A stretch of DNA of 50,127 nt from Kangiella sp. (GTDB lineage: Bacteria > Pseudomonadota > Gammaproteobacteria > Enterobacterales > Kangiellaceae), in NCBI GenBank assembly GCA_028284185.1, contig JANQSG010000031.1, positions 1-50,127 on the forward strand, read 5' to 3'. Below the pieces are notes generated by a model. It searched no databases, was not told the origin of the DNA, and saw nothing but the letters and a program-made list of their open reading frames with translations. Shown here piece by piece: positions 2 to 17,848 of the stretch; within the stretch, counting starts at the first letter, position 1, and each line of letters opens with the position of its first letter. A program made the position numbers and the translations under genes.

Positions 2-3000
2 AGTAATACTAGTCGTACGGGTCAAGCGACCTTCCCTTTGGAGGCGGGTACGAATGAGTTGAAGTGGTATTACTATAAGAATCATTCAGGTACGGCTCAG
101 CCTCATCGTTTTGTGATTGATAACGTTAAGGTGACAGTGTCAGATGGAATTGTTGATAGTGATACGGATGGTATTGATGACAATTGGGAGTTGACTTATT
201 TTGGTAATTTAACGACAGATCTAAGTATTGACCATGATGGTGATAATTTATCCAGTTTCCAGGAATATAATTTAGGTACTAACCCTCAAGATGTTGACTC
301 AGATACTGATGGTATGAGTGATGATTGGGAATATCAGAATCAACTTAATCCAACCAATGCTAGTGATGCTAGTCAAGATCCTGATGGTGATTCATTTATT
401 AATTTAGATGAATTCTGGGGGCAAACAGATCCTAATAATACTAATGAATTCCCTCTAGGCGTTGCTATTAAATTTGAAGGCTCTGAGATTATGCCTTTAA
501 ATTGGATAATGGAAGGTTCAGCACCATGGACATTTGACAATACTACTTATTCTGAAGGCTCTCAGTCTTTACGCTCGGGAACCATTGGCCATAGTCAAAG
601 TTCAATCACTAAAGTTGCTGTCAGTGCTTACGATGGTTTTATTCGTTTTGATGCAAAAGTAGATGCTCAAGCTTGTTGTGACATCCTTAAGTTTTATATT
701 GATGATGTTTTAAAACAGACTATTCAATTAACTGAATTTAAAACTTTCTACTTACCCATTTCAGCCGGCCCGCATGAGTTAAAGTGGGAATACACGAAAA
801 ATGGTGGAACTTCGACAGGTCAAGATGCTGCTTGGATCGACAATGTCTTTATTACTGCCGCAGAATACTTTGATAATTCCCCACCAGGGCATGTAATTCC
901 AACATTGACTAGAGTAAACACAGGCACCCAAGTTGATATTAATTGGTCAGATTATGATGCAGTAGCTAATGGCGATGATATTGCTTCTTACAGAGTTTAT
1001 CAATCTAGCACCGAGTTTACTGATATTACTAATGCTACTTTGTTAGCTACGGTAGAAAGCAATATCAGAAATTATCGTGTTAATAATCTTAATCGTGATA
1101 CTCAATATTATTTTGCGGTTGTTGCAGTCGATCTATTAGGGAATAAATTAACGGCTATTAATTCTCATTCAATAACCACGGTCGATACTTTAGCACCAAG
1201 TCAAGTTTATGGCACTTCAGTCGATTCAAAAGATACATCTTTTGTCGCCACATGGCAGCCATCGAACTCTGATGATATCGCTGGATATCAACTCGTTCTA
1301 AATGATGAAACACCAGTTGAGGTTTCAACAACTACTTTGTCTTATGAGTTTTCAGGATTAGCAGCTAACTCTCGGTATCAAGTAATTATCAAGGCGGTTG
1401 ACGCTTCAGGCAATATTAATTCAGGTCGTTACATTAGTGCGGCAACACTGTATGAAAACCCATCAATTACCAATATTGAAGAGTTAAGCGGTAAGGTAAC
1501 TTTAAATTGGTTGCCAGTAGGTGATGTATCAGGCATTAGCCAATATAAAATTTATGTAAGTCAAACACCGATTACGGATATTACCCATTTAACTCCAGAG
1601 GTTTCAATATCTGGTAATGCGGCTTCAGCATCAGTAGCCCGTTTAACCAATGGTGTAGAGTATCACTTTGCGGTTGCTGCCGTTAACATTAATGGTTTTA
1701 AAAAATCATTAGTAACAAGCATGACTGCTACGCCTGGCGAGGATACGCAAGGGCCGAATGTAACTTCGGTTAAATTAAACGGCGTGGAATTAGTTGACAA
1801 TGCTGTGTTATCTTCAGATGGCATCGCTTCGGTTACTGCTCAAGATCAAAGTGGTGTGTCTCGAGTTGAGTTCTATTTAGATGGAAATTTATTTGATACT
1901 AAATTCTCTTCTAACGGTACCTATAGCACGACTTTGCAAGTGGCTGATATTACTGATGGCAATCATAATTTATTAGTTAAGGCTTATGATACGTTAGATT
2001 TTGCAACAGAAGTTGTACGCGTCATTAATGTTGATTTGCCTGCTCCAGATGCGCCAACTTGGACATCACCAGCGAATAACTCGACAACTAATGAATCAAG
2101 AATTGATTTAATAGCTCAAACTGAGGCTAGTGAATATCAAATCAGTAATAACGGTTCAGTTATTCAGGATTGGACTACTTATTCTGGTAATCAATTCCAA
2201 GTAAATGTTGAACTTACTGAAGGGGAAAATCGTTTAACCGCTAAAGTGCGCAACCGTGGTGGCGAGAGTTCTGAAAGTTCAGTTTTAATTATAAACTTGG
2301 ATACGAGTATTCCAGAAGCGCCAACAGGCCTGGTCGCTTCAAGTAAACCAATGGGACAGATACAGCTTTCATGGAATGCCAGCGCTGGAGATAAAGTGGC
2401 AGGATATGATGTCTACCGTAGTAATGGTCCATTTGATGACTTAACTGTTGCGACTCGTGTTAACAGTGCTCATCTAAACACGACACGCTTTGATGATATG
2501 CCTGAAGACGATGGTACCTATTATTATCGCGTTGTAGCGATTAATGAGCTGGAAACTCCTAGTCAATTATCAAATAGTGTAGAAGCTGTCGCAGATAGTA
2601 CAGCACCAACGGCTACCCTTAGCTATGAACCTTTAAGTGCTTATGATGCAACAACTGAAACCTATGGGCGCGGTGAAGTTAATGTCACTATTGAAGTTTC
2701 CGAACCATTATTAACGGTTCCCTTTGTGGCAATTAAACCAGCTGATGGTGCCATTCAGATGTTGGATTTACAAAAATCTTCGGAAACGGTTTATACGGCT
2801 AAATTGCTCATTGACCAAGATAACCAGTCAGGAATGAGTACCGCCACCTTCTCTGCAAAAGATAAAATTGGCAACCAGGGCACTGATATAACGGAAGGCT
2901 TAAGTATCAAAATTGACTCAAAAGGTCCGAATGTTATTGCGTTAACTACAGAGCCTGCGCATCCAATTAAGAATGATGAAACGACGCCTGTTACCATTAC

Positions 3001-6000
3001 CGTCAATTTTAGTTTAGACGAAGCCGTTAAACCGGGTACGACTCCAACGCTAAGCTATCGCTTATCAGGTACTGATAGACTTGAGACGGCGATTGATAAT
3101 GTTGCTGCTGTTGATGGTCAAGAAAACCAATGGAGTGGTAGCTTTGAACTGCCTTCTGATGCTGGTTTAGCTGGAGTTGAATTATTGAGTTTTGTTTACC
3201 AAGCTGAAGATGCCTTAAACAACTCATCAACTGAAATTGATAACTCAAACCGTATTCAGGTTTATCAAGGTGATTTACCACCACTGGATACGCCATTTGG
3301 ATTGAAGGCTGAGGTACAGGCTGGAGGTCAAATTAAGATTTCCTGGTATGAAGTTCCAGAAGCTGCTGATTATCAACTTTATCGTCAAGCACCTGAAGAA
3401 ACTGAGTTAACAGAGTTTGTTCGGATCGGAGCTGGAGATATTCTAGAGTACCTTGATGCTACTGGTCTTGATGGCGAGTACCGCTATGCAATTGCCAGCG
3501 TACGCCAAAGTAATGGCGAAGAAACTTTAAGTGCCATGAGCGAAGTAGTGACGGCATCTGCTGATAGTCAGTTGCCTGAAGCACCAACCAACCTAACGCT
3601 TGAATTAACGCCTATTGGTATCCAAGCGAATTGGGTGTTAAGCACTTCGGATGATGTCGCTTCTTATCAGTTGTATCGAGCTGAAACAACGCCTATAAAC
3701 TCTATTGAAGGCTTAGAAGCTGCTATTGAAGGTATCCCTGCTTCCAGCCCATCAGTGGTTGATCAAAAGCCTGAGCAAACGCTGCCAGCTTATGTCGTAG
3801 TTGCCATAGATGAAGCAGGCAATTTATCAGCGCCAAGTAACACAGCTTACTTAAACGTTGAGTTGTTCCCTGTTGCAACCATAGCGGTTGAGCAATCATT
3901 GGATCAAAACCCAGTATTAAGTTGGACGCATAAAAATACCGATATCGCAGGTTTTGATTTGTATCTGGGTGATAAAGACACTGGCTTTAAAGTCAATGAT
4001 GCTTTAATTACTGGACTCGATTTTACCGATTCAGGTTATGCTAATGATAACCGTCAGTACACCATAGTTGCTAAAGATTCCAATGGCGTTGAGAGTTTAC
4101 CAAGAAGTATCTTCTTGCCTAAGCTTGATATCCAATTAAAAGAAGGTGAGTTATTAAAAACCAACTTAATTAATGAGTTGGAGTTCTTAGTTACCAATCA
4201 TAATGAACAAAGTTACAATAATAACCGCTTGAAGTTAGTGATTGCAGGTAAAGAACACTTATCTGAAAGTTTCTCGTTAGCAGCTAACTCAACTGAACTT
4301 ATTAAAGTTGTGGTTGGTGGTTATGAAGAATTATCGACCTTAAGTGATTTTGAGGTCACTTGGGAAAGTAAACCATCAGCAACAGAAACCATCAGCGTTA
4401 AACGCAATGATCAAGTCGAAGTCTTGCCTGGTGCTTTAAATGTAGCTCTTGAGACCAAAGACATGATCCGAGGCGGTGCAGGTCAGGTTCGTTTTAGCAT
4501 CGACAATACTGGTGAAGCCATGATGGAGCTTATAACAGCTTTAAGTCGTGGTAATGCTGATTCACATGATATTCGATTTATCTTAAAAGATTTAGATGGC
4601 AATGTTTTAGCCACTCAGAAGTTCAAACAAGCTCTAGGTGATAGCGTATTAACTTTGGCTTCGGGCCAAACGGTTGTGCGTATCCCGGCAGGACAAACTT
4701 GGATCTCTAATTGGGTGGACTTTAATATTCCAGTAGCAGCACCAGAACAAGTACAGTTGCAAGTTCAGATTGATAAGATTTATCGAAATGTGGGCTTGCC
4801 TGAAGCCGTGTCTCTAAAAGGGACTAACACCAACCGTGATTTATCGCTAATTGATACGCCCTATACAGGAGGCGCTGTTACGATAACACCTGTATCTTCA
4901 TTTGGCGATCAAGACATTACTATTACTGGTAAAGCGATTGAAAGAGCAACCTTAGCAGCGTTGCCAAATGTAGAGCTTAAACTAGTAATAACGGTTAATG
5001 GTTTTGAGAAAGTCTCAACGATTACAACCGATGCTAATGGCGACTTTAGCTATGTCTATACACCGGATAATGATGAGTCAGGTACTTATAAAGTTTCAGT
5101 CATTCACCCTGAGTTAACTGAGCGTCCCGATCATGGTCAGTTTGTGATTAATGATGTGGTTATTCGTCCGAATAATTTAACGGTTCGTATTCCTAAGCGT
5201 TATACCCAGGAATTGCCAATCTCGGTAACGGGCGGTGATGGAACTAACTTAACCAACGTTCGTTTTGAATTGATCGCAGAAGAGCAGCCTAATGCAACCT
5301 TGCCGGCAGATATTAATTTAGTTTTTGCAGAGCCAGTATCTATCGGTTCAAAGCAGCGTAAGAATCTGTATGTGCAAATGACCCCAGGCGATGGCGCCGC
5401 AGAGCAAAGCTCTTTTGTGTTAAGCCTTATGTCTGATGAAAGCGGAACAACACCTATCGGCAAGGCTATCGTGAATTATAGTCTGACAGAAGCTCAGCCT
5501 GCGCTATATTACTCACCAAGCTTTGTAGAAACCGGGGTTACTCTGGAAGGTGAAGTCAGCGAAACGATTACTTTGGAAAACAAAGGTGTCGATACCATGC
5601 GCGATATTAACTTAGAATTATTGCGCCAAGATGGTTTTGCAGCGCCTAACTGGTTATCCATGAATGTAAATGCTAATTTTGGTGATATTGAAGTTGGTCA
5701 AAAACGTCAATTAGCCATAACGGCAAGACCGCAAAATCAAGCATCCCCAGGTGTTTATGAATTTAAACTTCGAGTATCTTCCAGTAACCATCCGGTTAGA
5801 GATATTCCTGTGTTTGTTTCTTTAACTGAGTCGGGAGTGGGCGGCTATCAGTTTAAAGTCTCGGATATATACACTGCAACTTTAGATCCGAATGGTAATT
5901 TAATCCAGGGGTTACAAGGTGCCACTATTCGACTGCAAAACGAAGATGTGCCAAGCATTGAGTTCTCTTTAAGCACCAATCAGTTAGGTGAAGTCTTATT

Positions 6001-6766
6001 TGATAACTTACCAGCGGGTCGTTACAGCTATTGGACAAGTGCGGATAAGCATTTAGAAAAACATGGCCGTTTGGACGTTCGCCCAGGTGTCATTCGTAAT
6101 GAAAGTGTTTTCCTTGATTATCAATTAATTACCCTTGAGTGGTCGGTACGTGAAATTACTATTGAAGATCGTTATGAAATTATCTTAACGGCAACCTATG
6201 AAGTCGATGTGCCTGCTGCAGTGGTAGTTTTAGCACCTTCTTCAGCGACCATCCCAGATATGCAGACAGGTGATGTTTTCTATGGCGAGCTAACCATTAC
6301 TAACCATGGTTTAATCCGCGCTGATGAAGTGGTTTATAACTTGCCACAGTCAGATCAGTATTATCAGTTTGAATTCTTAACTTCATCGCTTCCTGAAAGT
6401 TTGGAAGCAAAAGAAGTGAAACGAATCTCATACCGTGTTACCGCTTTACAGTCGCTTGAACCTGAAGTGGATGGAACCGGTGGTGGTTGCTATACCTACC
6501 GTTCATGTATGGATAGCAAGGCTAGTTATCAATGCGCTAATGGCGATGAATCCAGTAGTTCAAGCACCAGTTGTTGGACAAGAAGCTATGGTGTCTGCGG
6601 AGGTGGCTCTGGCGGCGGTGGCGGTTGGTTTGGCGGCGGTGGTGGCTATGGCGGAGGCGGATCCGGAGGCTCAAACTATGATCCTCCAAAACAATCCCCA
6701 TTGCCGCCATGTGCAGCCGATGGTAAGGATTGTAATGCTGATGGAAATGGTTCGGGAGAACAATGA
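2..6766 (+). CDS. Giant exported Ca-binding / fibronectin-III repeat protein, 5'-truncated by window edge
   Basis: The reading frame is open back to base 2, so the true start lies outside the window; the TTG at 38 is not a real start. The visible N-terminus is the tail of a module (NELKW, then VIDNV) that is repeated complete at about residues 145-275 (HELKW, then WIDNV), so at least one earlier copy is missing. Residues are counted from base 38. Order: thrombospondin-3/EF-like DxDxDG repeats (about 45-140), the lectin-like module, many FN3 and Ig-like domains (about 285-1300), an Ig-like A-type domain near 1630-1690, a NEW3-like domain from about 1824, a carboxypeptidase-regulatory-like fold (about 1937-2018), then a Cys-containing, Gly-rich tail (about 2150-2242). 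It probably acts outside the cell as an adhesin or scaffold. Its stop overlaps the RHS start (ATGA), so it is likely cotranslated with that gene. Molecular function is unknown. Confidence 0.85.
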   Translation, partial: SNTSRTGQATFPLEAGTNELKWYYYKNHSGTAQPHRFVIDNVKVTVSDGIVDSDTDGIDDNWELTYFGNLTTDLSIDHDGDNLSSFQEYNLGTNPQDVDSDTDGMSDDWEYQNQLNPTNASDASQDPDGDSFINLDEFWGQTDPNNTNEFPLGVAIKFEGSEIMPLNWIMEGSAPWTFDNTTYSEGSQSLRSGTIGHSQSSITKVAVSAYDGFIRFDAKVDAQACCDILKFYIDDVLKQTIQLTEFKTFYLPISAGPHELKWEYTKNGGTSTGQDAAWIDNVFITAAEYFDNSPPGHVIPTLTRVNTGTQVDINWSDYDAVANGDDIASYRVYQSSTEFTDITNATLLATVESNIRNYRVNNLNRDTQYYFAVVAVDLLGNKLTAINSHSITTVDTLAPSQVYGTSVDSKDTSFVATWQPSNSDDIAGYQLVLNDETPVEVSTTTLSYEFSGLAANSRYQVIIKAVDASGNINSGRYISAATLYENPSITNIEELSGKVTLNWLPVGDVSGISQYKIYVSQTPITDITHLTPEVSISGNAASASVARLTNGVEYHFAVAAVNINGFKKSLVTSMTATPGEDTQGPNVTSVKLNGVELVDNAVLSSDGIASVTAQDQSGVSRVEFYLDGNLFDTKFSSNGTYSTTLQVADITDGNHNLLVKAYDTLDFATEVVRVINVDLPAPDAPTWTSPANNSTTNESRIDLIAQTEASEYQISNNGSVIQDWTTYSGNQFQVNVELTEGENRLTAKVRNRGGESSESSVLIINLDTSIPEAPTGLVASSKPMGQIQLSWNASAGDKVAGYDVYRSNGPFDDLTVATRVNSAHLNTTRFDDMPEDDGTYYYRVVAINELETPSQLSNSVEAVADSTAPTATLSYEPLSAYDATTETYGRGEVNVTIEVSEPLLTVPFVAIKPADGAIQMLDLQKSSETVYTAKLLIDQDNQSGMSTATFSAKDKIGNQGTDITEGLSIKIDSKGPNVIALTTEPAHPIKNDETTPVTITVNFSLDEAVKPGTTPTLSYRLSGTDRLETAIDNVAAVDGQENQWSGSFELPSDAGLAGVELLSFVYQAEDALNNSSTEIDNSNRIQVYQGDLPPLDTPFGLKAEVQAGGQIKISWYEVPEAADYQLYRQAPEETELTEFVRIGAGDILEYLDATGLDGEYRYAIASVRQSNGEETLSAMSEVVTASADSQLPEAPTNLTLELTPIGIQANWVLSTSDDVASYQLYRAETTPINSIEGLEAAIEGIPASSPSVVDQKPEQTLPAYVVVAIDEAGNLSAPSNTAYLNVELFPVATIAVEQSLDQNPVLSWTHKNTDIAGFDLYLGDKDTGFKVNDALITGLDFTDSGYANDNRQYTIVAKDSNGVESLPRSIFLPKLDIQLKEGELLKTNLINELEFLVTNHNEQSYNNNRLKLVIAGKEHLSESFSLAANSTELIKVVVGGYEELSTLSDFEVTWESKPSATETISVKRNDQVEVLPGALNVALETKDMIRGGAGQVRFSIDNTGEAMMELITALSRGNADSHDIRFILKDLDGNVLATQKFKQALGDSVLTLASGQTVVRIPAGQTWISNWVDFNIPVAAPEQVQLQVQIDKIYRNVGLPEAVSLKGTNTNRDLSLIDTPYTGGAVTITPVSSFGDQDITITGKAIERATLAALPNVELKLVITVNGFEKVSTITTDANGDFSYVYTPDNDESGTYKVSVIHPELTERPDHGQFVINDVVIRPNNLTVRIPKRYTQELPISVTGGDGTNLTNVRFELIAEEQPNATLPADINLVFAEPVSIGSKQRKNLYVQMTPGDGAAEQSSFVLSLMSDESGTTPIGKAIVNYSLTEAQPALYYSPSFVETGVTLEGEVSETITLENKGVDTMRDINLELLRQDGFAAPNWLSMNVNANFGDIEVGQKRQLAITARPQNQASPGVYEFKLRVSSSNHPVRDIPVFVSLTESGVGGYQFKVSDIYTATLDPNGNLIQGLQGATIRLQNEDVPSIEFSLSTNQLGEVLFDNLPAGRYSYWTSADKHLEKHGRLDVRPGVIRNESVFLDYQLITLEWSVREITIEDRYEIILTATYEVDVPAAVVVLAPSSATIPDMQTGDVFYGELTITNHGLIRADEVVYNLPQSDQYYQFEFLTSSLPESLEAKEVKRISYRVTALQSLEPEVDGTGGGCYTYRSCMDSKASYQCANGDESSSSSTSCWTRSYGVCGGGSGGGGGWFGGGGGYGGGGSGGSNYDPPKQSPLPPCAADGKDCNADGNGSGEQ

Positions 6767-9700
6767 TGGTTAATAATACGAATCAAATTAAGATAATGGC
6801 ATTAATGAGATATACCTTTAAGGCTTTCACGGCAATAGCGCTTACCTGTTTTATGAGTCATGTTGCTATATCGGCCGCTAGCGGCCGTATCATCAGCCGC
6901 GTTGATTACAGTGGTGCGATTTATGAAGAGACGGTCACTGATATGCAGGTTAAAGTGCTTGGTGGCTATGTTTCATTAAAGCGCAAATACAATAAAGATG
7001 GATGGACTCTTAATTCGAATTGGCAAAACTTGACCTTCAAAGACCCTGCCAATAGGTCTGTGCGCTACGTCTCTGCCTCTGGGAGCTCAGGCTCAGACAC
7101 AAGCAGCGAAATTGTTGTTCGTCCTGGCGATCCCGAGCCAGTCATTCGAACGATTATGCGCGGTCGTTTTGAATATAAACCGGTATCCAGTCAAGAGCCG
7201 GATCGTTATGTTGATGAGTACAACCCATCGTTGCAAATTGTTCGCACAGAGACCGGTTATCGCTGGAGTAATAAACAAGGCGATTGGATTGACTATAGCG
7301 CTACCGGTGCGACAAAGGCTTACGCTAATAAGAATGGGGTAAGCGTTAATTTTGTGCGTGACGCTAATGGACGTATCACCACCGTTAACGACCATTCAGG
7401 CAATTCTGTTTTAACTTATGATTATTCAACCGATGGACGATTGGTCGTTACTGATTATGAAGGTCGAACCGTGAAATACCATGGTCATTTTCCATTTATT
7501 GATAAGGTAACCGATGTTCGTGGCAATGATTGGCTTTATACCTATCAGTCGATTAAGGGACAACTCTATTTAAGCAGTAAAACAGATCCACAAGGGCGTA
7601 AAACTGTCATTGGCCATGAGTTAGTTCCTGGCGGTTTGCAAACCATTAACATAGGTACTGATTCAGTCTGGACGATTGAGGAAATTACCGACCCTGTAAC
7701 CGGAGAAGTAACGGTTCGGGAGTCTTATAATAGCTCGGGTTCAGGACTGGTAGCCCGCTCTTATATGGTTCCAGCCAAAGTGATGTATACCCACATGATC
7801 TATGCTGATGGTGGCAGGGTTGATTACCGCTATTTTTATAATCAAAACACAAAGACTTACTCTTTAGTAGAAAAAAACAGTGATGGTATTGTCAGTGATA
7901 AGTGGTATGCCTTAGACGGTAAATTAAAACGCTATTCAGTAGGTGGAAAAATACTGTTTACCCGGGCAGAAGCTTCAAACGGTAGTCAAGCGGTTAAAAC
8001 GGATATCAAAGGACGTAAAACTAACTTTAACTATAATCAATGGGAAAAAATCTCAAGCATCGTACATCCAGATGGAACTTCTGCTTCCTATAGCTACCAT
8101 CCAAAATTTGCATTCATTACGGGGTTCACCGATGAAGATGGTCATAAGACGGCTGGTGAATACGATGATTTTGGCAATCTAACCAAAATTACGCGTGCTG
8201 CCGGTACGGCTAATCAGCGCGTTACTGAATTTGAATACGATGAATACGGTCAAGTGACTGTCATTAGACAAGTGGGTGATGAACATACCCAAACATCCAT
8301 TACCGAGTTCAGCTATGATACCAAAGGTAATGTGACTCAAGTCAAAGACCCCGAAGGCTTTATCACCAAATACCAGGATTACAACGCCTTAGGTTTGCCA
8401 AAAAAGGTGATTGATACTCGTCAGAAAACTTGGGAGTTTAGTTACGATGCTGCCGGCAATATCACTCAGCAAAAATCACCATTAGGATTCGTCACCAGCT
8501 TGACTTACGATAAAGTGGATAACTTAAAATCGCTTACCGATCCCGAACTCAATATCACTCAGTTTGGTTACGATGCACGTGACCGCTTAGTGACCTTAAC
8601 CAATCCGCTAGAAGATAGCTTCACGCTCAATTACTCTTTGGATGGGCGTCCTTTATCAGCGATTAATGAAGAAGGTCATCAAGCCAACTTTACTTATGAT
8701 CGCCAAAGGCGCTTGAAAAAGGTTGTGGATGCAGAGGGCTTAGCGACTGATTTTAATTACGAAGATGAAGATAAATCGGCTTTAGCGCGTTTAGATTCGA
8801 TTTTAACGCCGAATGGAAAGTTAAAATTCTCTTTGGATGAGCGAGGAAGGGTGGTGAGTCAAACCACAGCCAATGCGGATGATAGTATCGCTTTAGCCAC
8901 GCAATTTGAATATAACAAGCGTAATCTGACGACAAAAGTGACGGATGCTGAAAATAATAATTCAACTTATGAATATAATGCGCACAATGAGCTAGTGAAG
9001 GTTACCAATGCTTTAGGTCATATTACTCGCTTTGAGTATGATAGACGCGGTAATTTAACCAAAGTGATTGACCCTAAACAGAGTGCTACCACTTATCAGT
9101 ATGATCGCCGTAATTTACTCAAAGTTGAAACCAAACCGATGGGACAAACGATGTCCTATGAGTATGATGGTGAAGCGAATCTATTATCGGTCATCGATAG
9201 TAAAAACCAGGTGATGGTGTTTACTTACGATGATGATGGTCGTTTAACCAAAGAAGAACATAAAACGACGGTCAGCGCTACAACGACTGAAAAGACGGTA
9301 ACCTACAATTACAATAAAAATGGTTATCTTACCGCTTATAACGATGGCACCACCTCGGCGACTTATACCTTAGACAAACTCAGCCGCTTGCAATCCAGCA
9401 CCATTAACTATGGGAGTTTTAGCAAGCGTTTTAGTTATGAATATGCCAAAGACCAACAGGTAGCCAGCTTTACCAATGCCGAAGGGATTAAATCCAGTTA
9501 TCGGTATGATAAAGCCAATCGCTTAAGCCTGATCCAAATCGCAGGCCAGGGGAGTATCGCCTATACCGAATATGAAGGTTATCTGCCGAAGAAAATCGTT
9601 TATCCGGGTGGTGTTAATGTTACCAATAGCTACGATGGGATTGGCAGGTTGCTACAAGAAGCGGTTAAAGACCCTGCTGGCAATAGCCTGCAAGCCACGC

Positions 9701-11187
9701 ATTACCATTATGACAAGGTGGGTAATGTTATAAACAAAACCACTAGCTTAGGTGCTTTTGCTTACGAATACGATGCGATTTATCGGTTAACCAAAGCCGA
9801 CCAGCTCGCGCCATTGCAAAATCGAATCTATCAATACGATGAAGTAGGCAATCGCACCAGCACCGAAGTGGCAGGACAGAGCTGGCAATACAATGCCAAT
9901 CATGAATTACTCAGCTATGGCACAACATCAGAACAAACCCGCTTTGATTATGATGCCAATGGCAGTACAGTTACGAAAACGACCACCATGGATGGTGGAA
10001 GTGCTGGTAACGCAGGAGCAGTTACCAGTCCCACATCAACAGGTACAGAAACCTATCAATACGATGTGGCGAATCGTTTAAGAGAAGTCCGCAGAAATGG
10101 TGATTTAGTTGCCAGTTATTATTATGACCCCTTTGGCAAACGCCTTTCCAAAACGGTGAATGGTGAAACCACTTATTTCCTCTATGCCAATGAAGGCTTG
10201 ATTGGGGAATATGACGGAACAGGTGCTTTAAAACAAAGCTATCAATATTTACCAGACGCCCTATGGGGTACCGCACAACTGGGGATGATAAAAGGTGGAG
10301 AAGCTTATTTTTACCAACATGACCAGATTGGAACACCAAATTTATTGACCAGTAAAACCGGACAAGTCAAATGGAAAGGCACGGTAGATGCTTATGGGCA
10401 AATGCACACACAAATCAGCACTATCGACAGCCCTCTAAGATTCGCAGGTCAATACTTTGATAGTGAAACAGGGTATCACCAAAATTATCATCGTGACTAT
10501 AACCCAAGTACAGGAAGGTATTTACAATCTGACCCGATTGGATTAGCTGGGGGGATAAATATCTATGGGTATGTGCATCAGAATCCGATTATGTTGACAG
10601 ATCCAACGGGACAGTTTGCCTGTGGTGGTGTTTGTATTGCAGCAATAGCCGGAGGAATTATGGCTGGGCTCGATTATCTGTATCAAACACAAGTTGAAGG
10701 AAAATCAAATGAATGTGTTAATTGGTGGGAAGTCGGTGCTTGGGGATTAAGTGGAACTGGTATTGGAATAGTTGCTAGAAGTGCGTTATTTCATGGAGGT
10801 TTAGGGACTGCGATAAGACGATTCTTTTGGGATCCGCGTAAATGGAATCAAGTTGGCCGCAAATATTGGGATGCTCGTGGTGGTGCAGGTATGAGTTCAA
10901 TTGACCACTATATATTTGCACATGCTAGCGCAGTATATAGAGGCGGTTCTCTGCCGGCAGGACTTGTTAATGCGGGTTTCAATTTAGTTCGAATGCCAAT
11001 TGCTATGAACTCATACTTGGGGGGGATAGGTGTTTCAGGTGGTATGGGAAGTCAGATACTTCTTAATACTGCTCGGTTTGGCGCGTCAGCTTTTGTTGGT
11101 TTAACGGCTTTAACCGGTGCTGCAGGTGGTTATATGGTTGGTACTTTAGCGCAAGAAGATAATAGTTCATGCGAATGTAGCCAATAG
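6763..11187 (+). CDS. RHS/YD-repeat protein with Sec signal and variable C-terminal domain
   Basis: The 1474-aa protein has a hydrophobic signal near residues 20-40 (AISA/ASG cleavage region); ATG 6805 is an alternative start. From about residue 190 it carries dozens of YD repeats (YDxxGNLT, FxYDxxxRL), which in RHS/Tc proteins build a closed beta-shell around a C-terminal cargo. The RHS-associated core is at about 1250-1285 (RYLQSDPIGL, then GYVHQNP and DPTGQF), with the usual aspartyl self-cleavage motif DPxGL. The last roughly 190 residues differ: hydrophobic Gly/Ala segments flank a part with SIDHYIFAHA and NAGFNLVRMPIAMNS, which resembles a common RHS tip with conserved His and Asn, nuclease-like by inference only. 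A Sec signal rather than a PAAR domain argues against T6SS loading. The neighbours suggest toxin display on a surface assembly. Confidence 0.88.
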   Translation: MMVNNTNQIKIMALMRYTFKAFTAIALTCFMSHVAISAASGRIISRVDYSGAIYEETVTDMQVKVLGGYVSLKRKYNKDGWTLNSNWQNLTFKDPANRSVRYVSASGSSGSDTSSEIVVRPGDPEPVIRTIMRGRFEYKPVSSQEPDRYVDEYNPSLQIVRTETGYRWSNKQGDWIDYSATGATKAYANKNGVSVNFVRDANGRITTVNDHSGNSVLTYDYSTDGRLVVTDYEGRTVKYHGHFPFIDKVTDVRGNDWLYTYQSIKGQLYLSSKTDPQGRKTVIGHELVPGGLQTINIGTDSVWTIEEITDPVTGEVTVRESYNSSGSGLVARSYMVPAKVMYTHMIYADGGRVDYRYFYNQNTKTYSLVEKNSDGIVSDKWYALDGKLKRYSVGGKILFTRAEASNGSQAVKTDIKGRKTNFNYNQWEKISSIVHPDGTSASYSYHPKFAFITGFTDEDGHKTAGEYDDFGNLTKITRAAGTANQRVTEFEYDEYGQVTVIRQVGDEHTQTSITEFSYDTKGNVTQVKDPEGFITKYQDYNALGLPKKVIDTRQKTWEFSYDAAGNITQQKSPLGFVTSLTYDKVDNLKSLTDPELNITQFGYDARDRLVTLTNPLEDSFTLNYSLDGRPLSAINEEGHQANFTYDRQRRLKKVVDAEGLATDFNYEDEDKSALARLDSILTPNGKLKFSLDERGRVVSQTTANADDSIALATQFEYNKRNLTTKVTDAENNNSTYEYNAHNELVKVTNALGHITRFEYDRRGNLTKVIDPKQSATTYQYDRRNLLKVETKPMGQTMSYEYDGEANLLSVIDSKNQVMVFTYDDDGRLTKEEHKTTVSATTTEKTVTYNYNKNGYLTAYNDGTTSATYTLDKLSRLQSSTINYGSFSKRFSYEYAKDQQVASFTNAEGIKSSYRYDKANRLSLIQIAGQGSIAYTEYEGYLPKKIVYPGGVNVTNSYDGIGRLLQEAVKDPAGNSLQATHYHYDKVGNVINKTTSLGAFAYEYDAIYRLTKADQLAPLQNRIYQYDEVGNRTSTEVAGQSWQYNANHELLSYGTTSEQTRFDYDANGSTVTKTTTMDGGSAGNAGAVTSPTSTGTETYQYDVANRLREVRRNGDLVASYYYDPFGKRLSKTVNGETTYFLYANEGLIGEYDGTGALKQSYQYLPDALWGTAQLGMIKGGEAYFYQHDQIGTPNLLTSKTGQVKWKGTVDAYGQMHTQISTIDSPLRFAGQYFDSETGYHQNYHRDYNPSTGRYLQSDPIGLAGGINIYGYVHQNPIMLTDPTGQFACGGVCIAAIAGGIMAGLDYLYQTQVEGKSNECVNWWEVGAWGLSGTGIGIVARSALFHGGLGTAIRRFFWDPRKWNQVGRKYWDARGGAGMSSIDHYIFAHASAVYRGGSLPAGLVNAGFNLVRMPIAMNSYLGGIGVSGGMGSQILLNTARFGASAFVGLTALTGAAGGYMVGTLAQEDNSSCECSQ

Positions 11188-11201
11188 TAGGGTGGAAGAA
11201 T

Positions 11202-11621
11202 ATGTTCACGTTATTTAAAAAAGCTAAGGATATCACTATTGATAAGGTAGGCTTACTTCGATTCAGAGATGGCTCTTGGCAAGGTGTTTTGAGAATTGGC
11301 GACAATGATGTTGAGCTTTCATTAGATGGAAAAAAAGAAGAACCAAACACTTTTTGCATAGATTATTTAACTGAAAACATAGTAAAGCTAAATATCCTCT
11401 GGAGTGAGGCAATTGAATTTTCAAGGTTGAAAATGACAGAAAAAAACTTTGATAAAAAAGTGATTGACTCAAGTTTCCAACTAGTTGCAGTTTCAATTCA
11501 TAGACAAGGGGTGTTTGATGGAGGTGAACTCGTTTTTTGGTTTGAGATTGAAGCAGATACTAATGGAGGCTATTACGTATCATTTAAGGAGAACGCTCCT
11601 ATTAACTTTCATCGTGATTAA
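11202..11621 (+). CDS. Small cytosolic protein, candidate RHS immunity protein
   Basis: The 139-aa protein starts 14 bases after the RHS stop and has no signal peptide or membrane segment. It is rich in alternating beta-strand patterns (GLLRFRDGSWQGVL; GGELVFWFEIEAD), similar in style to small all-beta immunity proteins of polymorphic toxin loci. I do not recognise the exact family. A cytosolic gene of this size directly after the variable RHS tip is the standard place for cognate immunity, so the role is inferred from position. After its TAA the frame stays open for 26 further codons (starting EAWNQWGKT), so the present stop may be recent or the protein may once have been longer. Confidence 0.6.
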   Translation: MFTLFKKAKDITIDKVGLLRFRDGSWQGVLRIGDNDVELSLDGKKEEPNTFCIDYLTENIVKLNILWSEAIEFSRLKMTEKNFDKKVIDSSFQLVAVSIHRQGVFDGGELVFWFEIEADTNGGYYVSFKENAPINFHRD

Positions 11622-11943
11622 GAAGCCTGGAATCAATGGGGTAAGACCAGAGTAATTGATTTTCAGTGGGTAGTAATTGGACTCAATAAAGTTCGTGTTT
11701 AGCTACTCCATCCATCGAATAAAGGAGATAGATTTATTTTTTTAAGAAATTAGATTCCAAATAATTATTATGAAGTATAAGAATAATATTGAGTACAAAG
11801 AATTTGATATCGAAAAATCAGCCGAAGGTAAGAGTCAATACGATAAAGTTAAATTGCAGAATTTGTAATAAATGGGATAGGAAAGTATTACGCGGTCCTG
11901 GTAACAATAGTGAAAAGGTTTGAAGGAAAAAAGGCATCGAAAC
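11622..11943 (+). other. Coding-like remnant tract with no intact gene
   Basis: This 322-base gap has no ORF that looks functional. Three short pieces read like protein in different frames: a 26-codon continuation of the previous gene after its stop, a 32-codon ATG ORF at 11770-11868 (MKYKNNIEYKEFD at its start) without a visible ribosome site, and a stretch from about 11872 (YYAVLVTIVKRFEGKK) that runs into the next gene in another frame. Such debris is typical where toxin-tip/immunity cassettes have been exchanged in RHS loci. It could also be ordinary AT-rich spacer. Confidence 0.35.
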
Positions 11944-14900
11944 ATGCAGGATATAATAAAAAACATGATGAAGAATATAAAATACATTAAAAGTGTTGTA
12001 CTGCTCAGCTTTTTAATGCTGATTATGGCCACTTCGGTAAAAGCGGAAGATTCGATTTGTGCCGTTGTAAAAATTGAAATTTTGCAGGAATTGACTTTAG
12101 AGCGTCAGGGTTTTGAGGCTGAGTTAAAAATTGGCAATGTTTTAGATTCAGGTTCGATTGATAATATATCCATCAATGTTTGGTTTAAGGACGAAAATGA
12201 AGAATCTGTATTAGCCACTTCAAATCCTAATGACACAACGGCCAAGTTTTTTATTGATATTCAATCCATGCAGAACATTAATGATGTATCAGGTAACGGC
12301 ACGATTGCTGCGGGTGAAGAAGCGATTGTTAAATGGTTAATTATTCCTGCGCCTGGTGCTTCCGGTGGGCGTGAACGCGGTACTCTATATTTTGTGGGTG
12401 CAGATTTTAATTACACTTTAGAAGGTACAGCAGAAACCATTACCGTTGCGCCTGATACTATCTATGTTAAGCCAATGCCGCTGTTAACTTTGGATTATTT
12501 CTTACCAAGAAATGTATATGGCGATGATCCTTTTACGGATGAAGTGGAAGCGTCAGAGCCATTTACTTTAGGTGTGCGTGTTCAAAACAATGGCTATGGC
12601 GATGCGCACAAGTTAAAGATTGATTCAGCCCAACCTAAAATTGTTGAAAACGAACAAGGCTTACTGATTAGTTTTGAACTATTATCCAGTTATGTGGGTA
12701 ACGATCCGGTGAATAACAGTTTACTCCTCGATTTTGGTGATATTGAAGCCAATCAATCCAAAGTGGGCCGCTGGCAAATGCAAGTCAGTTTATCGGGTCG
12801 CTTTACTGAGTTTGGCGCAACTTTTACCCATGCTGATGAACTAGGCGGTCAGTTAACTTCTTTGTTAGAAGCGACGAATACTCACTTCTTAATTCATGAT
12901 GTGGTCAATGATATTGCCGGGCGTGATGATATCCGTGATTTCTTAGCTGAAGGCTTGGCGTCTCCGCGATTATTTGAATCTGACGGTACCACTTCTGACG
13001 TTCAAGATATTTCGGCTGATGCCACTTTCGAGTTTGAGCAAAATGCAGGTGAATATGCTCGTTATAAAATGACCCTGCCTCTAAACACGGGCTTAATATA
13101 CGCTAAGGTTTCAGATCCATTAAATGGAAACAAACAATTAGCCTATGTCACTCGCTCTGATGGTAAAAGCATTCACCAGCAAAATGCCTGGCTTTCAAGA
13201 GTGCAGGATAGAGTGACCCATAATTGGAGCCATTATGTGAATTTATTCGATGCTAATGGCACTCAAGAATATTACTTTTATTACCAAGATATCGTTATTC
13301 CACCAAAACCACCGGTCATTGCCTTTATTCCACAGCGAATTACCCATGAAACGGCAGATATAGGTTTTGTGGTTAATGCTTCCGATCCCGATGGTAATCC
13401 TGTTTCTATTAGTGCTAACCCATTACCACAAGGTGCGAGTTTTACAGATAACGGCGATGGCACTGCAAGCTTTAATTGGACCCCAGCAGTTGGTCAAGCT
13501 GGATTATATCCAATCACTTACATTGCCAATGATGGCTCTGCTACTTCCAGTAAAACGGCCACTATCGTTGTTCATCCGCATGATGACATTGACGGTGATG
13601 GGTTGAATGATGACTGGGAACGCGAGCATTTTGGTAACTTAGATCAAGATGCTTTTGGTGATTTTGATGGAGACGGTATTAGCAACTTGACTGAATTTGA
13701 AAATGGTACTAATCCAGCGGTTCCAGATGGTCCGCCTACACCGACGGTATTTACACCAGCGATTGACGGTGAAGTTACTCAGTTGCCGGTTGAATTAAGT
13801 GTCGAAAACGGCATTTATGATGGTCCGCATGAAGTGATTTATCAGTTTGAGCTTTATGCTGATGAGGGCATGACCGAGCGTTTGGATTATTATAACTCGA
13901 TCGCTTGGGATACCGATGGAGTAAGCTCTTGGACGCCATCTATACAGCTTGACGATAATAAAGGCTACTACTGGCGTGCCAGAGCCTATGACGGCTTTAC
14001 TTACAGCAGTTGGGCTAATGGACATTTCTTTGTCAATACTGTCAATGATTTACCCTCTATTCCAACTTTATCGGCTCCTGCATTAGGTGCAGAGTTGATC
14101 GATACGAATCCAAAACTTGAGGTAGGTAACAGCCAGGATATTGACCGCGATAGCTTGTATTACAATTTTAAGGTGTATTCAGATAGTGATTTGCAAAATT
14201 TAGTGGCGGACTCCGGCGTGGTCGAAGAGGGTAGCGATGGCATGACCGCTTGGATGATCGGTTTGTTGTTAAACGATTTGCAAACCTATTATTGGAAAGT
14301 CAGTGTTACCGATGAGCATAATGCTTCTGTTGAGACGGATGTCTTTAACTTCGTATGGCGTGTTTCTAACCAGGCGCCTCCAGCTCCAACAATAGTATCA
14401 CCAATTGATAATGCTGAAGTGACAAGATTAACGCCTGAATTAAAGGCTGGCAAAGTCATTGATCCTAATAATGATCCTGTGGAATATATTTTCCAATTGG
14501 ATAGGGTGAATACTTTTGATAGTGCTGAATTGGTTGAGCAGCTGGTTACTGTTGATGAAACTCAAGCCAATGTCGTTTGGACTTTATCGGGTTTGAATGA
14601 CAACAGCACCTACTTCTGGCGTGTCAAAGCCCGCGATCCTAGCTTGGCATCCAGTGATTGGGTATCCGCGAGTTTCTTTGTGAATACCGAAAACGATGTG
14701 CCTAGTGTTCCAGTGATTAAAAACCCAGGGCATGAAGCCTGGGTTGATTCAAGAACGCCATTATTAGAGGTGTTTTCAAGCAGTGATTTGGATAATGATC
14801 CCATTCGCTATGAATTTGAGGTTTACGCTGATGAGGCTATGAGCGTTAAGGTGATGGGTTTTGTTAGCAATCTACCTGAATGGCAAACATACACTTTAAA

Positions 14901-16032
14901 TGATAATTCCTACTATTACTGGCGCGCTAGAGCTTTGGATAATGAAGATGCCACTAGTAATTGGACTGCACTAAATAGTTTCTATGTTAACGACAATGAG
15001 TATGATGATCCGCCGACTTTTACTTGGTTAGCACCATTAGAGACAATTAAGGCAACGCCAAATACTGAAGTGCAGCTAGCATGGCAAGATAAAGATTCTG
15101 ATAGTTCTGCGGTGATCCGTTTGTATTATTCAGTGAATGAAGATGGTTCAGAACCGATTGTAATTGCTGAGAATATTGCTGAGGATGCTGATGCAGTAGG
15201 GGATAGTTATAGCTGGAATATAGGTGAGCTTGAGTTAGGTTTCTACTATATTTTCGGTGAAATTAGCGATGCTAACTCAACGATTACGGCTAAAGCACCA
15301 GGTTTATTAGAAGCCATTCCAGAGCCAATTATTCCAGGTAATGTAATTGTCACAACTGAGCCTTTGATTGACTTGTATGAAGTCTATCAAAGCCCGGTTT
15401 CTAAGAGCTTTACAGTGCACTTAGATAAAGAGCCTAAAGCGAATGTAATAGTTCCGATTATTAATCCAGAGCCATTAAGATTTACTATTAGTGCTAGTTC
15501 GTTGACGTTTAATGCTGATAATTGGAATACACCGCAAAGCGTTATTTTGACACCACTGAATAACTGCTTTGTGGATGGTCATGTTAACTATGAAATTGGT
15601 GTGGATTTTGCGACTAGTGATGACAAAGCTTTTGATCAAATCAAAGGCGATAATGTCAAAGTGATGTTGTATAACGATGATCCAAAGCTTTATGCTGAAA
15701 ATCAAACCAGCCTTAGCGAAAACCTGGCTATCTGTGGTTTAGTTGAAAAGAATCATATTGTTTTAAGTAATAGTACTCACCAATATGAGTATGTGTTTTA
15801 CCTTAAAAACTTAGCTAATCAAACAATAGAAGAAGTGGAAATTGAGTTGAAGAGTAAGCAAGCTCAGATAAAAACAGTCTCTGATAGCATTGGCTTCCCT
15901 GAAATGGCCCCACAAGCGATTAGTAAGTCAGAAGAGCAAGTGATGTTTGTCGTGTATAATGCATTACCAGCTATCAATTGGTTAAATCCAGGCTGGTATG
16001 AATTAATTATTGATGAAATGGACTTTGACTAG
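11944..16032 (+). CDS. Second giant exported Ig/FN3-repeat protein of the RHS locus
   Basis: The frame is open from TTG 11920, but ATG 11944 has an AAGG about 10 bases upstream. ATG 11965/11968 would give a neat signal peptide (MKNIKYIKSVVLLSF, then SVKA/ED). About 1362 aa. Order from 11944: an N-terminal all-beta region (about 40-440) unlike common repeats; a cadherin/He_PIG-like domain (about 458-546, DPDGNPV, GTASFNWTP); a thrombospondin-3-like DxDGDG segment (about 548-593); four tandem FN3-like units of roughly 100 aa (about 600-1019), each ending in YYWRARA/YFWRVKA; a Calx-beta-like region with NADNWNTPQSV; and a final beta domain. It is predicted periplasmic or surface exposed. The tandem WRxRA units suggest internal duplication. 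It probably partners the RHS protein and the upstream giant; no enzyme motif is visible. Confidence 0.85.
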   Translation: MQDIIKNMMKNIKYIKSVVLLSFLMLIMATSVKAEDSICAVVKIEILQELTLERQGFEAELKIGNVLDSGSIDNISINVWFKDENEESVLATSNPNDTTAKFFIDIQSMQNINDVSGNGTIAAGEEAIVKWLIIPAPGASGGRERGTLYFVGADFNYTLEGTAETITVAPDTIYVKPMPLLTLDYFLPRNVYGDDPFTDEVEASEPFTLGVRVQNNGYGDAHKLKIDSAQPKIVENEQGLLISFELLSSYVGNDPVNNSLLLDFGDIEANQSKVGRWQMQVSLSGRFTEFGATFTHADELGGQLTSLLEATNTHFLIHDVVNDIAGRDDIRDFLAEGLASPRLFESDGTTSDVQDISADATFEFEQNAGEYARYKMTLPLNTGLIYAKVSDPLNGNKQLAYVTRSDGKSIHQQNAWLSRVQDRVTHNWSHYVNLFDANGTQEYYFYYQDIVIPPKPPVIAFIPQRITHETADIGFVVNASDPDGNPVSISANPLPQGASFTDNGDGTASFNWTPAVGQAGLYPITYIANDGSATSSKTATIVVHPHDDIDGDGLNDDWEREHFGNLDQDAFGDFDGDGISNLTEFENGTNPAVPDGPPTPTVFTPAIDGEVTQLPVELSVENGIYDGPHEVIYQFELYADEGMTERLDYYNSIAWDTDGVSSWTPSIQLDDNKGYYWRARAYDGFTYSSWANGHFFVNTVNDLPSIPTLSAPALGAELIDTNPKLEVGNSQDIDRDSLYYNFKVYSDSDLQNLVADSGVVEEGSDGMTAWMIGLLLNDLQTYYWKVSVTDEHNASVETDVFNFVWRVSNQAPPAPTIVSPIDNAEVTRLTPELKAGKVIDPNNDPVEYIFQLDRVNTFDSAELVEQLVTVDETQANVVWTLSGLNDNSTYFWRVKARDPSLASSDWVSASFFVNTENDVPSVPVIKNPGHEAWVDSRTPLLEVFSSSDLDNDPIRYEFEVYADEAMSVKVMGFVSNLPEWQTYTLNDNSYYYWRARALDNEDATSNWTALNSFYVNDNEYDDPPTFTWLAPLETIKATPNTEVQLAWQDKDSDSSAVIRLYYSVNEDGSEPIVIAENIAEDADAVGDSYSWNIGELELGFYYIFGEISDANSTITAKAPGLLEAIPEPIIPGNVIVTTEPLIDLYEVYQSPVSKSFTVHLDKEPKANVIVPIINPEPLRFTISASSLTFNADNWNTPQSVILTPLNNCFVDGHVNYEIGVDFATSDDKAFDQIKGDNVKVMLYNDDPKLYAENQTSLSENLAICGLVEKNHIVLSNSTHQYEYVFYLKNLANQTIEEVEIELKSKQAQIKTVSDSIGFPEMAPQAISKSEEQVMFVVYNALPAINWLNPGWYELIIDEMDFD

Positions 16033-16044
16033 AGTGATTTGCTA

Positions 16045-16914
16045 ATGATTTATCGCAGTTTTTTTCGCATAATTATTTTATTTTTGATGTCATCCGTTTC
16101 TTTTGGAGACGAACTGAAAGAAGTTTTATCAAATAACACGATTAAAGTCTGTAAAACAAGTGATGAAGTTTTTGAATTTGGCTTAAAAAATAAATTTTCT
16201 GATAGGCAGTTGAGTTTATATATACCGCCATTTGAGGCCAGCCAAGCCTATCAACAAGGTAAGCTTCTTATAATTGATGTAAGGGATCCGAAAGAATACG
16301 CAAAGTTTCGTATTCCTGATTCCATTAATTTACCAGTAAATAGTATCCAGCATAAAAGTATATTCAAGAAAAAACGTTTGTTACTGATTAATAATGGTAA
16401 GCACTATAAAGCTTTGGAAGCGGCTGCTCAGTTACTTTTAGAAAAAGGCTTTGTCAGCGTAAAAATTTTAGATGGTGGTATTAAAACCTGGAAAGACACT
16501 ATTCGTCTAATGGATGGGCAAGCAGGATTAACAAGTAATTTAAAATACTTAGGAGTTCGTGAATTTCTGCCAGAATCACAACATGGTCCCTGGTTAATTG
16601 TCGATGTAGGAGATGAGCCGAGCTTTAAAGAAAAAGTAAATGGCGAAATTAAATATTTGAAGCTGGATGAAGCGTTTGCTGCAAACCTGAATTCAATTCT
16701 GCGTGAAGAATTAAACCCTTTAATTCGTGTATTGTTCGTTTCTAATCAAGCTGATTTTTCTAATCAGCTTGAACATCAATTAAAGCAAGTCAGTATTGGC
16801 CCCTATCATGTGCTTAAGCATACTACGGACTATATTGATGTTTTAAAGCGTCAAAGTTTATTAGCACACAAAAAGAGCACAAGAAATTTGGATGCTTGTG
16901 GTTATGAATCGTAA
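16045..16914 (+). CDS. Exported rhodanese-fold protein lacking the catalytic cysteine
   Basis: ATG 16045 is preferred over the in-frame TTG at 16039 because the product then begins with a clean signal peptide (MIYRSFFRIIILFLMSSVSFG). About 289 aa. Residues near 62-155 form a rhodanese domain: VRDPKEYAKFRIPDSINLP is the family's first signature and ILDGGIKTWKD the last. At the active-site loop (near residue 115), where active members have a Cys followed by a basic six-residue loop, the sequence reads INNGKHYKA, so no sulfur acceptor is present. The C-terminal half looks like a second, degenerate rhodanese fold (IVDVGDEPSFKEK). Sulfurtransferase activity is therefore unlikely and a binding or structural role more likely. 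It starts 12 bases after the giant gene and overlaps the transglutaminase gene by 11 bases (ATG 16904), so these are probably cotranslated. Confidence 0.78.
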   Translation: MIYRSFFRIIILFLMSSVSFGDELKEVLSNNTIKVCKTSDEVFEFGLKNKFSDRQLSLYIPPFEASQAYQQGKLLIIDVRDPKEYAKFRIPDSINLPVNSIQHKSIFKKKRLLLINNGKHYKALEAAAQLLLEKGFVSVKILDGGIKTWKDTIRLMDGQAGLTSNLKYLGVREFLPESQHGPWLIVDVGDEPSFKEKVNGEIKYLKLDEAFAANLNSILREELNPLIRVLFVSNQADFSNQLEHQLKQVSIGPYHVLKHTTDYIDVLKRQSLLAHKKSTRNLDACGYES

Positions 16915-17776
16915 TCTTGTTTTAGGAGTATTAGCGATTGTACTCTTGGTTGGAGTAGGTGGGTATTATTATTTCGGTAAAGAGAGTGTAGTAGTAGCTC
17001 CCGAATATCCTATAAAAAAACACTTTAAATGGCGCTATAAGCTGACTAATACATCCGATCAAATGCTTGAAAATGTGATTTTTACTACGCAAATCCCACT
17101 TGAAAAATCTTCTTTTCAAATTAGAGAAAAGCTTAAAGCCAGCTTACCATACAAATCAGAAACCACTGCCTTTGGTGATACAGTCATATTCACGATTCCG
17201 ACCTTATCTCCTTATCAATCTAAATTTATCGATTTGAAATCAAATATGGCCTTCAATGTAGTTTCACAAACAGCAAATAATAACGAAAGCTTGGAAAAAT
17301 ATTTATTGACTACAAACTTAATTCAAGTTGATTCCCCTGAAATTAGCGGGTTAGCTAAAAAACTAATAGGCAATAATGATAAAAAAACAGCCAGTAATAT
17401 TTATCACTGGATTAAAAATAATTTAAAGTATTCTGGCTATATAAAGAAAGATTTAGGTGCGCTATATGCCCTAGAGCAGAAAAAAGGCGACTGTACTGAA
17501 TACGCAATGCTTATGGCTGCTCTGGCAAGAGCAAGTGGAATTCCTACAAAAGTCATTAGTGGTTTTGTCTATCAAAACAGCTCGGTTATTAAAGCTGAAG
17601 ATCTTCATAACTGGGTTGAAGTTTACATTGATGGTAAGTGGCAAATCATAGACCCGCAAAAAGAAAGATTTATGGAAAAAGAGCATGAGTATCTTGCTTT
17701 TATGATTTATGATGGCAGTGGCAAGAATATTCCTATTTCAAAAGTATTTTCTCCTAACGTATCAATAGGGCTTTAG
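16904..17776 (+). CDS. Membrane-anchored transglutaminase-like (papain-fold) protein
   Basis: ATG 16904 gives one N-terminal membrane anchor (LVLGVLAIVLLVGVGGYYYF) and a 290-aa protein; ATG 16892 is four codons earlier in frame. Residues 40-150 form a beta-rich periplasmic domain with no clear family. Residues about 165-255 are a transglutaminase-core domain with an intact triad: Cys197 in GDCTEYAML, His235 in LHNWVEVYI, Asp250 in IIDPQ. Bacterial members are cysteine proteases, amidases or crosslinkers. In this locus it could process or crosslink the giant repeat proteins or the RHS shell, which is inference. It is the last gene of the + strand cluster and is followed by a strong hairpin terminator at 17849. 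Confidence 0.85.
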   Translation: MNRNLVLGVLAIVLLVGVGGYYYFGKESVVVAPEYPIKKHFKWRYKLTNTSDQMLENVIFTTQIPLEKSSFQIREKLKASLPYKSETTAFGDTVIFTIPTLSPYQSKFIDLKSNMAFNVVSQTANNNESLEKYLLTTNLIQVDSPEISGLAKKLIGNNDKKTASNIYHWIKNNLKYSGYIKKDLGALYALEQKKGDCTEYAMLMAALARASGIPTKVISGFVYQNSSVIKAEDLHNWVEVYIDGKWQIIDPQKERFMEKEHEYLAFMIYDGSGKNIPISKVFSPNVSIGL

Positions 17777-17848
17777 TTTTTATTTAAAGCTATCAGTTTC
17801 GTTAACGGTTATATCACTAAAACCACACTAAATTATTTCTTAAAAACG

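Follow-up and report, generated by a model that had tools for sequence, protein, structure and literature searches.

What kind of apparatus is encoded where the gene of an RHS toxin-shell protein lies between those of two giant repeat proteins and is followed by the genes of a rhodanese-fold and a transglutaminase-like protein? The question is raised by a locus at the 5′ end of a 50,127-nucleotide stretch of DNA from Kangiella sp. (GenBank assembly GCA_028284185.1, contig JANQSG010000031.1), hereafter the window, which is the entire contig C8 of the 2.5-Mb Kangiellaceae genome G000. The locus comprises six open reading frames (ORFs) on the plus strand, denoted P1, RHS, 139-aa ORF, P4, ROD and TG. 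Its genes form a conserved module and are not neighbours by accident; the locus is read here as encoding a polymorphic RHS toxin that is mounted, after export by Sec, on a giant scaffold outside the cell, with a probability of roughly 0.6. The original prediction, a surface-displayed RHS device with a shell that might be tethered or crosslinked by envelope partners, is supported in part; the variable tip of the RHS protein, the 139-aa ORF and the type II secretion system (T2SS) genes of relatives had been missed in it. The features of the locus are as follows.

P1: 2..6766, plus strand; giant scaffold protein with fn3-, Big- and TSP3-like repeats, 5′ end cut by the contig edge
P1, CarboxypepD_reg (TTR-like) module: residues ~1969–2029
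P1, C-terminus: rich in Cys and Gly; C-terminal module of ~640 residues (P1C), aligned in 34 rows
RHS protein: 6763..11187, plus strand; 1474 aa, signal-like N-terminus, core to about residue 1285, variable tip of 189 aa
RHS C-terminal tip: 10618..11184, plus strand; variable, probable toxin domain
139-aa ORF: 11202..11621, plus strand; probable immunity protein without known family
P4: 11920..16032, plus strand; first ATG at 11944, probably exported, P4N module followed by immunoglobulin (Ig)-like repeats
P4N: 12043..13278, plus strand; conserved N-terminal module of P4 of ~410 residues, the family marker
ROD: 16039..16914, plus strand; rhodanese-fold protein, signal-like start, Ile at the catalytic-cysteine position
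TG: 16892..17776, plus strand; transglutaminase-like protein, N-terminal membrane anchor, Cys-His-Asp triad intact

All five genes that had been predicted are present at their positions. P1 matches the Pfam-type families fn3, Big and CarboxypepD_reg, RHS shows RHS_repeat (RHS/YD repeats) and the RHS-associated core domain (Rhs_assc_core), both of which mark it as an RHS toxin, and P4, ROD and TG contain Ig-like repeats, Rhodanese and Transglut_core, respectively; no family was matched by the 139-aa ORF. PAAR, VgrG and TcA/TcB domains were matched in none of the six proteins and NHL was not found in the locus proteins at E≤1. The view that the protein is not an effector of the type VI secretion system (T6SS) is upheld by the lack of any matched T6SS domain in the locus, T6SS genes elsewhere in the genome not having been searched for.

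The P1 and RHS genes overlap by 4 bases, the 139-aa ORF begins 14 bases past the RHS gene, P4 and ROD are separated by 6 bases and ROD and TG overlap by 23 bases. Between the 139-aa ORF and P4 lies a gap of 298 bases, so that this junction is loose, and the tight packing that had been predicted holds for P1/RHS, P4/ROD and ROD/TG but not in front of P4. Promoter- and terminator-like sites are no more frequent than in shuffled sequence. The gap itself (11621–11920) contains a 32-codon ORF, found by eye, which is possibly the relic of a displaced tip/immunity cassette. As the window is an entire contig and P1 is open at its 5′ end, the start and the signal peptide of P1 are not visible here. Another contig of the same genome (C19, positions 3–1031, L043) encodes an N-terminus of 343 aa that resembles P1, begins in a signal-like manner and runs off the contig end; it may be the missing start of P1, the two pieces having been compared and not joined.

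Within the wider family the tip of the RHS protein is the part that varies. For 42 of the 47 RHS ORFs, those with a complete core and tip, the last 600 residues of the core and the tip were compared separately, using boundaries given by profiles: all 861 core pairs are similar (861/861), while only 55 of the 861 tip pairs are. A small ORF follows within 60 bases in 27 of the 47 cases, and none of the 351 pairs of these ORFs is similar; all P4N pairs are (3240/3240). Since the RHS core and P4 are conserved while the tips and the following small ORFs vary, the gene pair looks like that of a polymorphic toxin with a putative immunity protein, and the 139-aa ORF is by position and turnover the probable immunity gene. 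The RHS tip and the 139-aa ORF of the source locus gave no Pfam match above the cut-off and had no counterpart in the plasmid collection. Two sequence patterns tried for the end of the core had failed, one wholly and the other by catching 11 of 48 ORFs, and the profile boundaries were used in their place.

The gene of the giant P1 is either a neighbour of the RHS gene or joined to it. In two loci (L131 and L142) P1 and RHS are encoded in a single open frame of the order P1N-P1C-RHS, in a third (L160) as P1C-RHS, and on a Methylomonas plasmid (L168) the fused P1-RHS frame is annotated as a beta-helix protein. Nine further P1C-RHS frames are apparent, as judged from equal open-frame length on the same contig and strand. 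From these arrangements P1 and RHS look like one particle. A fusion of P1 to P4 was also considered; its labels shrank from four ORFs to one (L130), which lacks a P1C domain above 15 bits, and it was dropped.

How far the gene set holds together was surveyed with the first 300 residues of P4N (six-row alignment A1) as query against genome contigs. Of 317 stretches matched by pattern 194 were confirmed as P4N relatives, and 80 of these loci, many on short contigs, were kept and searched with profiles for RHS, P1C, ROD, TG and T2SS components built in this analysis. RHS was found in 46 of the 80 loci, P1C and ROD in 35 each and TG in 25; 18 loci have three or more T2SS components. Where at least 3 kb were available to both sides of P4, 33 of 46 loci contain RHS. 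Neighbouring core genes of the fetched loci lie on the same strand in 104 of 104 pairs, 72 of them with gaps of at most 60 bases. The combination of P1, RHS, P4 and the rhodanese/TG genes is met repeatedly in records that bear the names of gamma-, beta- and deltaproteobacteria, while the gene order shifts between lineages. P1-RHS-small ORF-P4-ROD-TG is found in the source genome and in L081, with an extra ORF before ROD in L085 and without the small ORF in L093; Gilliamella, Snodgrassella and Saezia have P4-ROD-P1-RHS; two Desulfobacterales loci (L111, L129) have TG-P4-ROD followed by a P1-RHS frame; and mainly in relatives from the Burkholderiales and Xanthomonadales the order is P1-RHS-small ORF(s)-P4-GspG-F-E-L-M-C-D, or most of it. 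Co-occurrence of all five genes in several genera, as the original prediction had envisaged, is borne out by L081, L085, L093, the Methylomonas plasmid L168 and the class genome G697, in which all five share one contig, and by L109, L111 and L129, in which the set is complete once sequence past the first flanks is counted.

For most of the 13 well-flanked loci without RHS, the reach of the sequence may account for its absence. RHS follows on the same contig just past the flank in five (L109, L111, L129, L134, L138); in four P1C is followed by the contig end (L094, L110, L144, L153); and in three a large gene is cut at the contig end (L100, L116, L130), P1C not being found on those contigs, although the genome of L116 has a P1C-RHS frame on a different contig. 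A separate class of RHS-less ROD/TG loci with a beta-helix cargo, which had been considered, was mostly dropped, L140 being an exception. For 26 genomes, picked because their loci lack P1C or RHS or are truncated, the search was extended to the whole genome; P1C was matched in 21 of them and RHS in 22.

A further view is given by 369 genomes of the class, not picked by P4, which were searched with the P4N, P1C and TG-family profiles (TG cut-off E≤1e-25). P4N was found in nine genomes (one with a weak fragment), the TG family in seven and P1C in five, all genomes with TG or P1C being P4N-positive, with the proviso that the profiles favour linked members, because they were built from P4-linked loci, and that at most seven candidates were scored per genome in one search. 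Each of the seven TG matches shares its contig with P4N, the distance being no more than some 15 kb. In the stretches read, RHS was seen for four of the seven TG genomes (G000, G475, G633, G697). The opposite expectation, that rhodanese and TG genes would usually be unlinked to RHS genes, is not confirmed within these limits; in the other three RHS was not seen, on stretches reaching contig ends (G508, G618, both with P4, ROD and TG) or within the 20 kb read (G519, with TG and P4). Orders in the class again differ: TG-P1-RHS-P4 (G633), P1-RHS-P4-RHS (G470), ROD-TG-TG-P1-P4-RHS (G697) and RHS-ORF-P4-ROD-TG (G475); in the last of these genomes P1 is found where a different contig ends. Closer to the source, a full-length match to P0004 was confined to the source genome among 20 genomes of the genus, with one more (G004) among 40 of the family. 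In 394 genomes of the order the P4 N-terminus has eight matches, six of them strong; four come from one family (f27, taken as Orbaceae) and show the order P4-ROD-P1-RHS.

The claim that the rhodanese is inactive is supported by its sequence. The catalytic cysteine, which we take to be located three residues before a conserved glycine, is replaced by isoleucine in the source protein and is absent in 33 of 33 aligned ROD rows, which have V, I, M or L instead; the second half of ROD is, in our reading, degenerate and rhodanese-like. In TG, by comparison, all 24 aligned rows retain the Cys, the His and the Asp of the triad (rows were admitted to both alignments if they spanned 70% or more of the model, and the source sequences are included). 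A dead rhodanese conserved beside a TG that bears its triad suggests an adaptor and an enzyme, and TG may crosslink, cleave or just bind. The GC content at 16001–18000, which covers the ROD and TG genes, is 0.336, the lowest of 25 segments (the others 0.370–0.458), a hint of a different origin. In one relative, a 292-aa gene following TG (L120:15675–16553) has about the length of ROD and no Pfam match at E≤0.001; it may be a very divergent rhodanese.

In another part of the family the place of this pair is taken by secretion genes. Where the sequence downstream of P4 extends for 3 kb or more (50 loci), three or more T2SS components occur in 18 cases and ROD and/or TG in 25; seven loci contain neither set, and in no locus do the two coincide. 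The 18 T2SS-linked loci belong mainly to relatives from the Burkholderiales and Xanthomonadales, among them Hydrogenophaga flava (L113) and Pseudoxanthomonas wuyuanensis (L124), and in them the T2SS genes replace the ROD/TG pair. If one or two components are counted, L111 and L130 have T2SS-like genes on the other strand beside ROD and TG. For T2SSE, T2SSF, T2SSG and secretin (D) the assignment of one gene apiece is borne out by Pfam. The order recurs on a plasmid of Eleftheria terrae, where the genes behind P4 are annotated as gspG, F and E and two further prepilin-like genes are present. Ten genes near P4 or TG in L081, L085, L093, L120, L147 and L155 matched no T2SS family. In a quick tree of P4N all 18 T2SS loci fall into one clade of 26 rows (SH-aLRT 99), which also contains L093 of the Methylococcaceae with ROD-TG and L105 with ROD. 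The pseudopilin T2SSG was found in 33 of 41 genomes searched, with one match in the source genome; of 13 genomes of the cassette type, 12 have at least two well-covered matches, and in the remaining one a single such match is accompanied by two short fragments. Outer-membrane passage probably proceeds by type II secretion in many hosts and not in the bee-gut relatives, linked machinery being present in 18 of the 80 loci and T2SSG being absent from eight relatives.

The N-terminus of RHS, for which a Sec signal had been predicted, appears signal-like by eye, but its hydrophobic stretch remains just under the threshold of a hydrophobic-start test, which is itself crude (positive for 86 of 212 other ORFs and for 2 of 19 GspE). 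Across the loci this test is positive for P1 in 11 of 16 cases, RHS in 30 of 42, P4 in 72 of 81, ROD in 31 of 37 and TG in 20 of 25.

Parts of this picture are familiar. Sec-exported RHS toxins were catalogued by Zhang et al. 2012 as 'T2SS/Sec-dependent', with no signature neighbour genes in the table concerned (PMC3482391), and share with the present locus a signal-like N-terminus, RHS repeats, a variable tip and a small neighbouring ORF. Some of those toxins contain transglutaminase and bacterial Ig domains, the transglutaminase domains being inactive and part of the toxin (PMC3482391), whereas the TG of the present locus has a gene of its own, keeps its triad and belongs to a recurrent set of neighbours. 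The RHS bacteriocin Bcn-A of Xanthomonas perforans combines an RHS toxin with an immunity gene, as is probable here; its killing activity is found in the supernatant, depends on the T2SS and is lost in an xpsD (T2SS) mutant (PMC7259588). In contrast to the present locus, that of Bcn-A comprises five ORFs of 1398, 124, 100, 290 and 145 aa without a partner of the size of P1 or P4 (PMC7259588). Bacterial Teneurin-like proteins, identified by FN-plug, NHL and YD-shell profiles in a 2026 study that states the delivery route of YD-shell toxins to be unknown (PMC13018210), share with the present locus N-terminal adhesion domains, a TTR domain (here TTR-like), a YD shell, a variable C-terminus that is toxic there and probably so here, a small immunity gene, here a probable one, and inferred surface display. 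The present locus differs from them by the lack of an NHL match, by the frequent distribution of the adhesion/TTR-like part and the YD shell over two genes, and by P4 and its accessory set. Among solved structures the RHS core is closest to Rhs proteins, several of them linked to the T6SS (8h8a and 8cp6 rank with the top sequence matches); bacterial Teneurin-like proteins come next, and Tc toxins match weakly. Unlike the T6SS Rhs proteins, the locus has giant scaffold partners and no PAAR or VgrG domain in its six proteins; the Tc toxins (TcB-TcC) have the RHS cocoon in common with it, but the match is confined to the end of the core and no TcA or TcB domain was matched in the six proteins. 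No description of the gene set was found in the literature searched, which did not include preprints and many subscription papers; passages of PMC13274458 and PMC5727410 proved unrelated to it.

In the proposed mechanism the RHS toxin would cross the inner membrane through Sec. P1 would serve as an adhesive stalk and RHS as a cocoon enclosing the toxin tip, while P4 would hold or present the particle from the outer envelope. In many hosts the outer membrane would be passed via the type II pathway, encoded by linked genes in one branch and, in the source organism, at another place in the genome. The dead rhodanese could be a binding adaptor, and TG would work in the periplasm, cleaving P1, P4 or RHS or fixing them by a covalent bond. 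Competing bacteria would be the most likely target, with kin being shielded by the product of the small ORF.

Several observations weigh against this reading, apart from the bias of the profiles mentioned above. RHS was not seen beside P4 in three of the eight class genomes with strong P4N (G508, G519, G618), L140 is an exception with neither P1C nor RHS near P4, and in L094 P1C is located beyond the flank on the strand opposite to P4. P4N has no match among solved structures, and P1C no convincing one. On the side of secretion, Pfam gives no match for the two genes that were called L and M from their position, and as one clade holds all T2SS loci, the mutual exclusion of the two gene sets amounts to at least two changes, perhaps no more. 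Several genomes without linked T2SS genes also have two or three T2SSG matches, hence it is solely by gene position that the T2SS could be called dedicated. No T2SSG was found in eight genomes of Orbaceae, Neisseriaceae and Saezia with P4-ROD-P1-RHS loci, so that type II secretion is not the sole route.

If RHS were a stand-alone Sec-exported toxin with P1 as its adhesin, P4, the rhodanese and TG would be surface genes without a role in toxicity. Export of RHS toxins by Sec/'T2SS' in the absence of signature neighbours is on record in the table already cited, and in three class genomes the stretches read contain P4 and TG but no RHS; we nevertheless regard this as unlikely, given the presence of RHS in 33 of 46 well-flanked P4N loci and just past the flank in five of the other 13, the restriction of TG at E≤1e-25 to P4N-positive genomes among 369, and the retention of the set while gene order shifts. 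Improbable as well is a structure for adhesion or colony cohesion, in which P1 and P4 would form fibres crosslinked by TG and RHS would serve cohesion or kin recognition, not killing. It would account for the giant Ig/Fn3/beta-helix repeats and for the intact triad of TG, an analogy with teneurins could be drawn, and P1 matches the cohesion protein MtsD, albeit far below the cut-off. But a core that is kept while the tip and the ORF behind it turn over is the pattern of a toxin-immunity arms race.

A narrower alternative concerns the accessory genes, namely that TG and ROD form a handling and anchoring pathway of their own that substitutes for the linked T2SS, TG cleaving a site on the particle and attaching it to the surface. 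The absence of loci with both sets (0/50), the ROD-TG and ROD genes of L093 and L105 inside the T2SS clade and the retention of ROD in bee-gut genomes that lack T2SSG are all consistent with such a substitution. Those same genomes, however, show no TG in the stretches read, the independent changes are few, the source genome has a T2SSG match elsewhere, and in L111 and L130 ROD and TG are accompanied, on the opposite strand, by one or two genes of T2SS type; a substitution of this kind therefore appears quite doubtful. The reading as a Sec-exported polymorphic toxin on a giant scaffold is retained.

Some further observations concern the neighbourhood and spread of the module. The next gene beyond TG in the window is that of a ribonucleotide reductase (17916..19220, minus strand). 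The source genome contains eight RHS-associated core matches on contigs C4, C8, C11, C14, C17 and C19, one of which is in the locus. A second RHS gene follows P4 in L084, L086, L087 and L189/L190. The module is plasmid-borne in Methylomonas (L168, NZ_CP023670.1) and Eleftheria (L169, NZ_CP106952.1), where an ankyrin-repeat protein occupies the immunity position in the latter; the locus proteins of the plasmid records are annotated as hypothetical, Ig-like or beta-helix proteins. In the cyanobacterium Nostoc a P4N stretch of 34.6% identity is located within a giant Calx-beta protein (plasmid pTCL26-01_C, L170). In Desulfoluna spongiiphila (L116:15432–18298) a CAAX-protease-like gene and a fusion of prolipoprotein diacylglyceryl transferase and C25 peptidase lie between P4 and ROD, a possible surface-sorting pathway.

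The locus is thus a polymorphic toxin locus of the RHS type whose set of partners is of a new kind, and it is broader than had first been thought. Tentatively, and at slightly less than even odds, it may represent a distinct and as yet unnamed class of RHS delivery, in which a stalk-mounted cocoon is combined with a P4N protein as the defining partner, with a type II machine of its own in one branch and a dead rhodanese and TG in others, and which would extend over several proteobacterial groups, Desulfobacterales and plasmids. P4N, P1C and the TG/ROD pair provide markers by which such loci can be found, and the linked T2SS genes in 18 loci make the delivery route of YD-shell toxins genetically testable.

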